Below are positions 3,117-7,451 of a stretch of 7,452 nucleotides of DNA, one piece after another. The stretch comes from Candidatus Lithacetigena glycinireducens (GTDB taxonomy: Bacteria > Coprothermobacterota > HKB111), in assembly GCA_018725485.1 (NCBI GenBank), contig QLUP01000047.1:1-7452 (forward strand). The letters are read 5' to 3'. The notes under the pieces are model-generated. The model did not search any database, had not been told where the DNA came from, and was given only the letters and a program-made list of their open reading frames with translations. The translations under genes were made by a program, and so were the position numbers. Within the stretch, counting starts at the first letter, position 1; each line of letters starts with the position of its first letter.

Positions 3117-3584
3117 ATGAGTAAAGTATTTGAAGGAAATTTGTTAGGACAAGGTTTAAAATTTGCGATAGTAATCAGCAGGTTTAATGAATTCATTACT
3201 TCCAAATTATTAGATGGAGCTAAAGACTGTTTAATAAGGCATGGAGTAAAAGAAAGCGATATTGATATTTTCTGGACACCAGGTTCATTTGAAATACCCC
3301 TGATAGCCAAAGAGGTCGCTAAAAGAAAAACACACCAGGCTATTATTTGTCTTGGTGCAATTATTAGAGGAAGTACTCCTCATTTTGAGTATGTGGCTAA
3401 TGAAGCAGCTAAAGGAATTGCACAAATTAATCTAGAACTGGGGGTACCTGTAGTTTTTGGGATAATTACTGCTGACAATTTAGAACAAGCCATAGAAAGG
3501 GCAGGAACCAAAGCTGGTAATAAGGGGTGGAGTTCAGCTTTAAATGCTATTGAAATGGTGAACCTTATTAAAACCCTGGATTGA
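3117..3584 (+). CDS. ribH: 6,7-dimethyl-8-ribityllumazine synthase
   Basis: RibH condenses 5-amino-6-ribitylaminouracil with 3,4-dihydroxy-2-butanone 4-phosphate to give lumazine, the substrate of the ribE product. In many bacteria it assembles into pentamers or 60-mer capsids. The 155-residue protein matches the family along its length: SRFNEFIT (21-28) with the substrate-binding aromatic F23, WTPGSFEIP (53-61), and [14 protein letters not shown] (80-93) with H89 as the expected general base. [17 protein letters not shown] (109-125) and the [11 protein letters not shown] phosphate-site region (127-137) follow. It has the strongest ribosome binding site in the window, AGGAGG at 3103-3108, 8 nt before the ATG, which suits a protein needed in large stoichiometric excess. 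Its TGA overlaps the TTG start of the next gene. Confidence 0.97.
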
Positions 3585-4066
3585 AAGTTATAATTGTTTT
3601 TGGGCAGCATAAATCAGGTAAAACTACTGTAGTAGAGTCTCTTGTTAGAGGTATAGCCGATAAAGGTTTTTCGGTAGCTACCATTAAAGATATTCACTCG
3701 CCTGACTTTGAACCGGATACTCAGGGTACCGATACTTTTAAGCATATTTCTGCAGGCTCAACCGTAACTGTAGGTTTGGGTCTAAATAAGACCGCTATTT
3801 TTATACCTCGAAGAATTAACTTAGGAAAGTTATTGGATTTTATTGAATGCGACTACCTAATTATTGAAGGGAATTTACCCGTTACAGGAGTAAAAATATT
3901 TTGCGCTCTATCAACAGAAGAATTACAGGTAAATGACCCTGCTATAATTGCTTTTTCGGGTTTAGTTTCTAATATAATTTCCCATTCTTCTATACCCCCT
4001 GTTCTTCACCCCATTTATCAGCAAAAGGAGTTAGTCAACCTGGTGTTAGAAAATACTGAAGATTAA
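3581..4066 (+). CDS. MobB-like P-loop NTPase
   Basis: This is a 161-residue soluble protein of the MobB (molybdopterin-guanine dinucleotide biosynthesis B) type of SIMIBI GTPases, an assignment made from motifs. It has a Walker A loop GQHKSGKTT (8-16), the VATIKDIH segment (32-39) matching the MobB IKH strand, [10 protein letters not shown] (46-55) matching the family's D-x-x-G-x-D-[ST]-x-[RK]-H signature, then AG at 58-59 and LIIEG (93-97) as the Walker B-like strand. No mobA or other molybdenum cofactor gene is in the window, so the substrate is uncertain and a different nucleotide-dependent role is possible. The TTG start at 3581 overlaps the ribH stop (TTGA) with no convincing SD, implying termination-reinitiation. 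No ATG or GTG lies in frame ahead of the first beta strand. Confidence 0.8.
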
Positions 4067-4114: not shown

Positions 4115-5044
4115 TTACCCAGGATGCTGAATATTACTTAATGCAATTGTCAATTGAGACCCTAATTTAGCGTTGTTTAGTAATAAACTTTTATTAGACC
4201 TTAAGGTTCTACCTTGAGAGTAATGATTAACCTGCTTAAGAAGATACGAGGTTAAGCCCTGACCTTTAATACCTGCAGATTTTGCATCATCTACCGCTTG
4301 TTTTATGTATACTTGCACTTCATCAAAAGGAATACTCAATGTTTCTGGAGGGGGATTAAGAATTAAGATACTTTTCTTCTGGTCCAGTAATGATTGTATC
4401 CTAAGATATTCCACCAGACTGTTTATATCCATAAAATATGAACTTAACTCATAAGGCGTATCATAAGAATAAAAAGCTGGAAATTTTTTTGTCTGGTAAC
4501 CAACTACCGGTATCCCCAGTGTTTCTAAATATTCTATAGTTTTTGGTATATCAAGTATAGCTTTAACGCCGGCAGAAATGATTACAACTTCATATTGAGA
4601 CATTATTGTCAAATCCTGAGAAACATCCATAATTCCCTCTTCCCAGCCCCTATGCACACCACCAATCCCCCCTGTGGAAAACACTTTTATGCCGCTTTTA
4701 TAAGAAATAAATAATGTAGCTGAAACCGTAGTTCCTCCAGATATATTTTTAGTTATAGCGTAAGAAAGGTCTCGTGCAGAAAGTTTAACAATCTCTTTTT
4801 CTTTTCCTAAGAATTCAATCTCATCTAACTCAAGACCTACCTTTATTTTTCCTTTAATAACCCCGATGGTAGCCGGGATTGCTCCAGCTGATTTTACGAC
4901 ACTTTCTAAAGCCAGAGATAACTCCACATTGTCTGGAAAGGGTAAACCATGTGTTAATACTGCTGTTTCCAGGGCTAAAACTGGTTTATTATTTAACAGG
5001 GCAAATTTTATTTCTGGAGATATATAGATAAATTCTTTTAAAAT
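4115..5044 (-). CDS. psuG: Pseudouridine-5'-phosphate glycosidase, apparent ATT start
   Basis: PsuG cleaves the C-C glycosidic bond of pseudouridine 5'-phosphate to uracil and ribose 5-phosphate, usually after the kinase PsuK; no psuK is in this window. The first ATG, GTG or TTG codon in the open frame is GTG at 4927, which would remove about 39 conserved residues. The frame is open upstream and encodes a typical PsuG N-terminus: LKEFIYISPEI, then PVLALET (21-27) and THGLPFPDNVE (31-41). Starting at ATT (5044-5042) gives 309 residues, the usual length. E26, D144 and K161 keep the spacing of Glu31, Asp149 and Lys166 of the E. coli enzyme (glutamate, Mn ligand, Schiff-base lysine). Other signatures are GGTTVSAT (103-110) and FSTGGIGGVHRG (122-133). 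The late segment SQGRTLRSN departs from the common T-G-G-x-S-L-x-A-N. The ATT follows the ricT TAA after 1 nt, with AAGGA at 5062-5058 as possible SD. Confidence 0.9.
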   Translation of the reverse strand: MLKEFIYISPEIKFALLNNKPVLALETAVLTHGLPFPDNVELSLALESVVKSAGAIPATIGVIKGKIKVGLELDEIEFLGKEKEIVKLSARDLSYAITKNISGGTTVSATLFISYKSGIKVFSTGGIGGVHRGWEEGIMDVSQDLTIMSQYEVVIISAGVKAILDIPKTIEYLETLGIPVVGYQTKKFPAFYSYDTPYELSSYFMDINSLVEYLRIQSLLDQKKSILILNPPPETLSIPFDEVQVYIKQAVDDAKSAGIKGQGLTSYLLKQVNHYSQGRTLRSNKSLLLNNAKLGSQLTIALSNIQHPG

Positions 5045-5045
5045 T

Positions 5046-5852
5046 TTAAGTTCTCTTTCCTTCAGAAAGAAAAATATCTATGGGAAATACTTTCTCTGAT
5101 CCATCGTTTAACTTAACCAACAAGGTTGACTTAATCAGATTTTTCCCTGATACTGTACCATCACCCATAGGTGTTTTTACTTTATCACCCACTTTAGGTA
5201 GCTTTGTTTCCAACTCCTCATAAAGATCCAACTCATATCGTAAACAACACATTAAACGACCGCATATTCCCAATATTTTTTCCGGGCTGACTAATAACCC
5301 TTGTATTTTAGCCATATTTACCCCAATTGAACTAAACTCGGTAATAAATCTGTTACAACAGGTGACCTGCCCACAGGGACCCATACCACCTAACAGTTTA
5401 GCTCTTTCTCTCTGATTTATCTGCCAGAGTTCAACCCTCTTTTTTAATTTCTTAGCTAAGTCTTTAACCATCTTTCTAAAATCTACCCTTTCTTCGGAGA
5501 AAAAATAAAATACAATTTTATTTTCACCAAATGATGGAACTGTTTTTATCAGTTTAATAGGTAAATGATGTTCTTTCAGTAAGTCCTGGAAAATATTTGT
5601 TGCCTCTTCCTTAACTTCCTCCATTTTGGTAATTTTCTCTTTGTCTGATTCATTAGGAAACCTCAAAATATTGACCATATCTTTCTCATTGATTGATGTT
5701 ATTAAAAAATGGGTTCTTATGATTTTTCCAACTTCCTCTTTATCCTCTTTTTTTACAATCACCTGGTCACCTGTTTGAATCTCCAAATCTGTAGGTTTAG
5801 AAAAAACTAATTCCAAGCCCTGGGCTATTCTAATTACTAATACTTCAGGCAT
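5046..5852 (-). CDS. ricT: PSP1 domain protein RicT (YaaT family)
   Basis: This 268-residue cytosolic protein belongs to the PSP1/YaaT family. In Bacillus subtilis RicT forms an Fe-S-binding complex with RicA and RicF that affects RNase Y-dependent mRNA processing, competence, biofilm formation and sporulation; that role is transferred here by family. The N-terminal third has the GDQVIVKKEDKEEVGKI region (28-44). The conserved core follows, with RVDFRKMVKDLAKKLKKRVEL (122-142) and GGMGPCGQVTCC (155-166). MAKIQGLLVSPEKILGICG (180-198) and GRLMCCLRYE (198-207) complete it. Six cysteines, C160, C165, C166, C197, C202 and C203, are the family's cluster-ligand set and all are present. The 8-nt overlap with the holB end and AAAGGA upstream of the ATG support this start. 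A tmk-holB-ricT order is common in Firmicutes; the yaaQ and yaaR genes often between tmk and holB are absent. Confidence 0.93.
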   Translation of the reverse strand: MPEVLVIRIAQGLELVFSKPTDLEIQTGDQVIVKKEDKEEVGKIIRTHFLITSINEKDMVNILRFPNESDKEKITKMEEVKEEATNIFQDLLKEHHLPIKLIKTVPSFGENKIVFYFFSEERVDFRKMVKDLAKKLKKRVELWQINQRERAKLLGGMGPCGQVTCCNRFITEFSSIGVNMAKIQGLLVSPEKILGICGRLMCCLRYELDLYEELETKLPKVGDKVKTPMGDGTVSGKNLIKSTLLVKLNDGSEKVFPIDIFLSEGKRT

Positions 5853-6843
5853 GCATATAATCCTTTATTTTTATAGTAATTTTATCCCAAAAAAGAGAGG
5901 GATTTACATTATAGTCGTTTGCTGACTTAATTGAGTTAACAATGAAGAGCAGGCACTCCTGGGTTTTTTCAAAATCTAATTCCTCACATATTTCTTTAAT
6001 ATCTCTTTCCAGGTCAATATTAATTATAAGATGGTTGAATCCAGCTAAATACATTAATAGATCTCTTACCAGAAGACTTAAAATCTCTAATTTTTTTAAG
6101 GACTCTTCCCTGCTATCTTTATCCTGAATGCCAAGACAAGCAAAAGCATCAACTAACTTGTTACTTTTTAATAAATAAAGATAATTTATTACTGATTTCC
6201 TCATATTTATCAACAAATCTCCAGAGATATAGTCTATTGCTTTTCCCAGGCTTCCTTGAGATAAACCTGACAGAAGATGAGCACGTCCTTCTGTAATTTC
6301 ATAATTTTCCAGTAAGAATAACTCTATTTGTTCCTGAGATAGAGGAAAAAATTGAATTTTTACCGCTCGTGAAAGAATAGTTGGCAATAATAACTGTGGA
6401 TGGGAGGAAATCAATATTACTGCAAGGTATTCAGGTAGATCCTCAAGAATCTTCAACAGATTGTTAGCAGCTTCAGTGGTAAAGTGGTGGGCATCTTTAA
6501 TAATAACTATTTTAAACCTTCCTTCTAAAGGTACTGTACAAGCAAAATCATGTACTCTGAAACTATCCTCAAGCTTGATATTACCACTAGTGCCAACATC
6601 TATAACTAATAAGTCCGGGTGCTTTAAATTACCGGTCAATAGACAAACTCTACAGCTAAAACAGGGATTATTATCATTTGAATTCCGACAGTTAATTCCC
6701 TGGGAAAAAACTAAAGCAGTGGTAAACTTTCCCGTTCCCTGCGGGCCATAAAATAGAAATGTTCTATTAAAAATCTTCCTTTTAAGAAGCCCCTGTAAAA
6801 TCTTCCTGGCTGTTTCCTGTCCTATAATTTTTTCGAAACTCAT
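5845..6843 (-). CDS. holB: DNA polymerase III delta' subunit
   Basis: HolB is the delta' subunit of the clamp loader that opens and places the beta sliding clamp on primed DNA. The 332-residue protein begins with the AAA+ entry FEKIIGQE (3-10), then the P-loop GPQGTGKFT (33-41). A zinc-module cysteine set follows, C52, C61, C64 and C67. The Walker B region is IIKDAHHFTTEAANNLLKILE (114-134), where the acidic pair is degenerate, and the sensor/arginine-finger region is ILSRA (156-160), close to the SRC motif. The helical C-terminal collar domain is poorly conserved, as usual. Phe40 where Ser or Thr normally follows the P-loop lysine, and KDAHH in place of DEAH, suggest a non-hydrolysing subunit, consistent with delta' rather than tau/gamma. 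The ATG overlaps the tmk stop (ATGA), with AGGA just upstream. Confidence 0.92.
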   Translation of the reverse strand: MSFEKIIGQETARKILQGLLKRKIFNRTFLFYGPQGTGKFTTALVFSQGINCRNSNDNNPCFSCRVCLLTGNLKHPDLLVIDVGTSGNIKLEDSFRVHDFACTVPLEGRFKIVIIKDAHHFTTEAANNLLKILEDLPEYLAVILISSHPQLLLPTILSRAVKIQFFPLSQEQIELFLLENYEITEGRAHLLSGLSQGSLGKAIDYISGDLLINMRKSVINYLYLLKSNKLVDAFACLGIQDKDSREESLKKLEILSLLVRDLLMYLAGFNHLIINIDLERDIKEICEELDFEKTQECLLFIVNSIKSANDYNVNPSLFWDKITIKIKDYMHA

Positions 6844-7451
6844 CTCATCCTGTTAATATATTCAAGAGCAACCCTAAAAATAGAGATATGAACTTCTTCA
6901 ATAGGTCTTTCTCCCTCTATTACTTTTATTCTTTCTGGAAATTTCCTTATAAGCCAGTTATACCCTTCTTCAACTTTCGCATAATAACTGTCAGGTCTTA
7001 TTTCTATCCTATCTTTCCCTCTCCTTTTCATGCTCACTTCCAAACTTATTTTAATATAGAGGGTTAGTTGAGGCCAAAAAGCTGAGGTATACCTTTCGTT
7101 CAGATTTAGAATTTCTTCTCCTCCTAAACCTAAACCAAAACCCTGATAGGCAACGCTGGAATCTATATATCTTGATGATATAACTATTTTTCCTTTTTCA
7201 AAAGCTGGTTTGATTACTTCCTCAACATGGGAAACCCGAGCAGTTAAAAACAGTAAAGCTTCAACTTTAGAGCTAATCCGTTGATGAAGAAGCACTTCCC
7301 TGATTTTTTCAGCAACCTGGGTTCCTCCGGGTTCACGAGTTAGGGTGACTGGAAAACCAATCTCACGAAGTTTATTTGCCAGAAGATTAGCCTGTAAAGA
7401 TTTCCCTGCTCCATCTAATCCTTCAATGGTAATAAAAATACCTTTATTCAT
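6840..7451 (-). CDS. tmk: Thymidylate kinase (dTMP kinase)
   Basis: Tmk phosphorylates dTMP to dTDP with ATP, an essential step of dTTP supply. The 203-residue protein is full length, with its ATG one base from the window edge, so any upstream signals are outside. Motifs in order: IEGLDGAGKS (9-18, Walker A), TREPGGT (38-44, dTMP-binding), LLFLTARVSHV (66-76), SRYIDSSVAYQG (93-104), and the LID segment RRGKDRIE (143-150) followed by YYAKVEEGY (156-164). The DRY/DRH triplet normally beginning the fourth motif is SRY here, so Ser93 replaces the conserved Asp; the rest of the motif is intact. The stop overlaps the holB start by 4 nt, making this the first visible gene of a coupled tmk-holB-ricT-psuG operon. 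Confidence 0.95.
   Translation of the reverse strand: MNKGIFITIEGLDGAGKSLQANLLANKLREIGFPVTLTREPGGTQVAEKIREVLLHQRISSKVEALLFLTARVSHVEEVIKPAFEKGKIVISSRYIDSSVAYQGFGLGLGGEEILNLNERYTSAFWPQLTLYIKISLEVSMKRRGKDRIEIRPDSYYAKVEEGYNWLIRKFPERIKVIEGERPIEEVHISIFRVALEYINRMR

Follow-up and report, generated by a model that had tools for sequence, protein, structure and literature searches.

AUU is a poor initiator codon, normally discriminated against by IF3, and IF3 genes themselves often use unusual start codons. Initiation at such near-cognate codons is already known from a small number of bacterial genes. The pcnB gene of E. coli has an AUU start (Binns and Masters 2002, cited in PMC13009471), and in S. 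aureus near-cognate starts have been demonstrated by ribosome profiling and reporters for cvfC1 (AUU), ccpN (AUA) and infC (AUA), which carry extended Shine-Dalgarno sequences and yield about 10% of AUG output in minimal medium (PMC13009471). In an E. coli reporter, ATT reached about 0.3% of the efficiency of ATG (Hecht et al. 2017, as cited in PMC10666635), while termination-reinitiation in the same organism is limited to very short distances (PMC10666635). What the present analysis adds is a set of several predicted starts of this kind that are conserved in one lineage, among them that of a psuG gene at the end of an operon.

The window analysed here is a whole contig of 7452 bp, one of 204 in a draft genome of 1.24 Mb. 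Its minus strand carries tmk-holB-ricT-psuG, a compact operon that ends with psuG, and its plus strand carries ribD, ribE, ribBA, ribH and a mobB-like gene. Apart from ricT, psuG and holB, the genes were named by reading their translations. The tmk-like gene (thymidylate kinase by this reading; 6840..7451, minus strand) overlaps the holB-like gene (DNA polymerase III delta' subunit; 5845..6843, minus strand) by 4 nt, and the latter overlaps ricT (PSP1 domain; 5046..5852, minus strand) by 8 nt. The ricT stop is the TAA at 5048-5046, leaving a gap of 1 nt to psuG if that gene starts at the ATT considered below. On the plus strand, the mobB-like gene (3581-4066) opens with a TTG that overlaps the ribH stop and is separated at its end from the convergent psuG by 48 nt, a stretch that yielded no convincing terminator. 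An Rfam search of the window returned no RNA family.

The psuG frame is open from stop to stop for 320 codons (4115..5077, minus strand). Its product gives a full-length match to Pfam PF04227 (E 2.6e-103, 345.8 bits, profile 1-289 of 291) and matches the structure of E. coli PsuG, 4gij (E 2e-75), from query residue 7 onward. In this alignment E37 (codon 37, 4967..4969, minus strand) falls on Glu31 and K172 on Lys166, residues with described catalytic roles in the E. coli enzyme (PMC7722734). By these matches the gene is an intact psuG, encoding pseudouridine-5'-phosphate glycosidase, and an earlier note made from the letters of the window had identified it correctly.

A phylum-wide search gave one close relative, Candidatus Psychracetigena formicireducens BS5B28 (QLTX01000005.1, Candidatus Lithacetigenota), an independent assembly in which PsuG is 83% identical and which is referred to here as the sister species; the Lithacetigenota lineage has been reported only from serpentinite-hosted springs (PMC9751293). 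Both of the compared genomes are draft metagenome assemblies. In the window, the psuG frame is bounded upstream by an in-frame TAG inside ricT (5078..5080, minus strand), found at the same place in the sister species, and holds no ATG, GTG or TTG before codon 51, a GTG (4925..4927, minus strand) that lies too far downstream to serve as the start; the sister frame holds none before codon 27. By itself, the run without these codons is not remarkable, as codon frequencies alone give it a chance of about 18% over codons 12-49. It is remarkable because it spans what reads as strongly conserved coding back to the upstream stop, and because the sister species shows the same up to codon 27. The earlier note had described the frame as open from the TAG at 5080-5078 to GTG 4927, and had placed an ATT (5044-5042) one nt past the ricT TAA with an AAGGA 13 nt upstream, and all of these coordinates are borne out by the sequence. 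Its argument that a start at GTG 4927 would give a dead enzyme likewise agrees with the alignment, since E37, the equivalent of Glu31, would be removed.

The sister psuG has an identical upstream TAG, ricT junction and ATT, and in either genome one nt separates the ricT stop from the ATT (junction codons CTT AAA ATT TCA AAA GAT TTT in the sister, CTT AAA ATT TTA AAA GAA TTT in the window). The ATT is conserved in both genomes of the genus available in the sets searched (n=2); other members of the phylum with psuG have it in different neighbourhoods and with plain ATG starts. Between the two species, all 11 changes in codons 21-50 are synonymous, all 4 in codons 12-20 are non-synonymous, and the remainder of the gene has 49 non-synonymous and 65 synonymous changes. 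The first of these counts indicates that the region upstream of GTG 4927, which includes an SPE motif common to E. coli PsuG, is translated. As that region contains no canonical codon, translation must, on this comparison, start from a near-cognate codon among codons 1-19, unless a frameshift leads into the frame. The proposal of a non-canonical start is thereby supported, no in-frame ATG, GTG or TTG preceding the conserved N-terminus in either species. The further suggestion that an ATG had recently been lost does not hold: the check that had been proposed was to look for ATG at this codon in close relatives, and the sister species, at 83% protein identity, carries ATT. The identity of the ATT in two species is nevertheless weak evidence for that particular codon, since about 70% of amino-acid-conserved codons are identical between them anyway.

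Four near-cognate codons of the frame are conserved in both species, namely ATA at codon 1, CTG at codon 5, ATT at codon 12 and ATC at codon 17, and psuG most likely starts at the third of these (5042..5044, minus strand). Among the four, the ATT alone is preceded in both species by a pairing to the 16S tail of about -6 kcal/mol (-6.4 and -6.1 kcal/mol, at differing distances), the other three having about -2 to -4 kcal/mol. Together with its position one nt past the ricT stop, this supports the earlier choice of ATT as the best-placed codon. From the ATT to the catalytic Glu there are 26 residues, where relatives have 9-31 by our own count, and obg of the same two genomes also appears to use an AUU start. 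Against the ATT stands its weak Shine-Dalgarno sequence, the AAGGA at 5058..5062 (minus strand), which is 11-13 nt away in the window, at the limit of the range considered, and is absent as such in the sister species. A predicted hairpin of 10 pairs at the ricT end (5051..5073, minus strand) covers this AAGGA and forms in silico in both species, but it is no better than in shuffled sequence and was left out of the evidence for that reason.

A start at one of the other conserved near-cognate codons, that is at CTG 5065-5063 inside ricT, at ATC 5029-5027 or at ATA 5077-5075 (all minus strand), is less probable, yet it deserves serious consideration. The two species share all three codons. The alignment with E. 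coli PsuG reaches some residues ahead of the ATT (ELKI), with the MSELKI of the E. coli protein on codons 7-12, consistent with initiation at CTG 5065; a start at ATC 5029 would in turn give MYISPE and a length as in relatives. Of the three base changes between the species in the ricT-psuG overlap, each changes the RicT sequence and two leave that of PsuG unchanged, a pattern that would favour such a start although three changes are too few to decide. The pairing to the 16S tail is poor before each of these codons, with no Shine-Dalgarno sequence before the CTG in either species and weak pairing only before the ATC, and both CTG and ATA lie inside ricT, so that they would be preserved by its coding need. 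The same overlap bears on the quite improbable reading that psuG has no start of its own and is entered by a +1 frameshift near the ricT end (for example, on UUU C in AUU UUU CUU), giving a RicT-PsuG fusion. A P-site UUU can slip to UUC, and in the two species alike no stop interrupts the psuG frame over the final 32 nt of ricT, with the stretch GATATTTTTCTTTCTGAA identical. The site has, however, neither the stop codon nor a stimulator as in prfB, nor any significant structure, and extra constraint on the overlap, sought as silent-site conservation between the two species, was not significant.

Initiation further downstream, at GTG 4927 in the window and at TTG of codon 27 in the sister species, is scarcely conceivable. 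These are the first canonical codons of psuG in the respective genomes, and in the sister species a start at TTG 27 would retain the catalytic Glu; in the window, however, codon 27 is CTG, and neither GTG 4927 nor the sister TTG is preceded by a useful Shine-Dalgarno sequence. A start at GTG 4927 was rejected in view of E37 upstream of it and of codons 21-50, which show no amino-acid change between the species and argue against any downstream start. Equally little weight falls on an assembly error, or on a decaying psuG just deprived of its ATG, even with draft metagenome assemblies on both sides: the same ATT and TAG in an independent assembly of another species exclude both a sequencing error and an ATG lost only recently, and the gene is under strong purifying selection with no internal stop.

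If psuG starts at the ATT, as preferred here, ribosomes ending ricT at UAA 5048-5046, one nt from the AUU, would probably reinitiate there, helped by the weak purine-rich pairing to 16S rRNA. The packing of the operon, with overlaps of 4 nt and 8 nt and then a 1-nt gap, fits termination-reinitiation, and of the earlier suggestion of reinitiation from ricT the coupling, at least, remains plausible. PsuG output would be expected to be low, because AUU is a poor initiator that IF3 discriminates against, and tied to ricT translation. If ATT is as inefficient here as in the E. coli reporter, psuG could be usefully expressed only with coupling or a lineage-specific tolerance.

Further near-cognate starts were sought in 846 kb of the same genome (559 predicted genes whose 5' end is complete) as coding frames reaching far upstream of any canonical start, a screen that misses genes with a chance ATG, GTG or TTG in the first 20 codons. 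Two of the genes it returned, prfB and selD, are explained by the RF2 frameshift and by a selenocysteine codon, respectively, as is established; after their removal the convincing cases are obg and a PhoH-family gene. The obg gene, for a ribosome-assembly GTPase (L118 18203-19435 on contig C150, plus strand), has no ATG, GTG or TTG for 107 codons and shows GGAGG, 8 nt and then ATT (-14.2 kcal/mol), preceded closely by a stop. This layout recurs, as a pattern match only, in the sister obg (G001 C225 171-197, minus strand; GGAGGTATGATTAATTTTTCTTGATAG), where a TGA lies one codon upstream of the TTA that neighbours the ATT. The sister gene also has, between Shine-Dalgarno and ATT (matching L118 18190-18220), an out-of-frame ATG (ATGATTAATTTTTCTTGA, five codons) that could be a tiny competing frame. 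In the PhoH-family gene (L075 5266-6249, also L180; minus strand) a GTA is the only well-placed start, behind AAGGAGG and 6 nt (-11.1 kcal/mol), and the same GTA is found in the sister species.

The infC gene, examined separately from the screen, has GGAGG, 8 nt and ATC (L024 / L074), with the same ATC in the sister species (L025), the sequence in this genus being GGAGGTGAGATTT ATC. A TTG and a GTG stand just before the ATC, and because they fall in and next to the Shine-Dalgarno sequence itself, the ATC is the apparent start of infC in this genus. In Coprothermobacter-like genomes (L026, L029, L031), namely the second genome screened below and two relatives, infC seems to have an ATA start (GAGGAGGTAGAAGAAC ATA) behind a strong Shine-Dalgarno sequence. 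As read from both species, infC (AUC), obg (AUU) and the PhoH-family gene (GUA) are thus without a usable canonical start and are preceded by a strong Shine-Dalgarno sequence.

Four additional candidates, all on the plus strand and without a canonical start near the conserved N-terminus, come from a single genome and lack confirmation in the sister: a DUF362 protein (ATA, L131 3417), an AmmeMemoRadiSam radical SAM enzyme (L040 8092), in which CTG is the first codon after a stop, a hydrogenase maturation protease (CTG or ATA, L111 2148) and an S-layer-domain protein with ATC behind AGGAGG (L109 4225). Short-pattern searches of the sister for the DUF362 and AmmeMemoRadiSam starts gave no match, although such short patterns do not decide the matter. 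A control screen of a second genome of the phylum, presumably Coprothermobacter proteolyticus (400 kb, 318 genes), gave one candidate, and the difference between the two screened genomes is too small for claiming an excess of near-cognate starts. The control candidate (second block position 56901 of joined L159-L178, about G002 C1 456901) reads like YceD/DUF177, has no ATG, GTG or TTG for 51 codons and may start at ATA or ATT.

An altered initiation machinery was considered as a cause of relaxed start selection and set aside. The unusual GRA of IF3 is also present in a solved IF3 chain, 5me0_Y, which is taken here to be that of S. aureus, and no claim is made from it; the initiator tRNA-Met (L113 1001-1077) has, by our own reading, the normal three G-C pairs of the anticodon stem and the 1-72 mismatch. 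Both IF3 and the initiator tRNA look normal. That a single genus of a deep-branching, uncultured phylum holds four conserved cases suggests that near-cognate starts are more frequent than the handful of textbook examples would imply, and most gene finders, which ignore starts beyond ATG, GTG and TTG, would leave PsuG, Obg and others truncated or missed. A comparison of two species suffices for finding such starts, and IF3-sensitive initiation becomes testable in more genes. It is a speculative and rather unlikely extension that the near-cognate starts of infC, obg, the PhoH-family gene and psuG form a recurring, conserved regulatory device, most of these genes acting on ribosomes or RNA. If they did, translation of the set would follow IF3 activity or the free 30S pool, and pseudouridine salvage would be tuned to ribosome supply.

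Compared with E. coli PsuG (YeiN; PDB 4gij), the psuG of the window shares the family and the aligned pair Glu31/Lys166 and E37/K172, and differs in its start codon and in its neighbourhood, being last in an operon with ricT. It resembles E. coli infC and pcnB in having AUU, an IF3-sensitive codon, as the apparent sole possible start of a conserved gene with low expected output; unlike them, it is a downstream operon gene whose putative start lies one nt after the preceding stop and pairs weakly with 16S rRNA. With cvfC1, ccpN and infC of S. aureus, the cases described here share conservation between species and the presence of several such genes per genome. The strong, well-placed Shine-Dalgarno design of those genes recurs here in obg, the PhoH-family gene and infC, whereas psuG has no extended Shine-Dalgarno sequence and adjoins an upstream stop. 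In this last respect psuG is most like the termination-reinitiation pairs, with stop and start within one nt of each other if the ATT is used and with overlapping junctions upstream in the operon; the known pairs, unlike psuG, use standard starts, and ATT is discussed for them as a possible rare case (PMC10666635).
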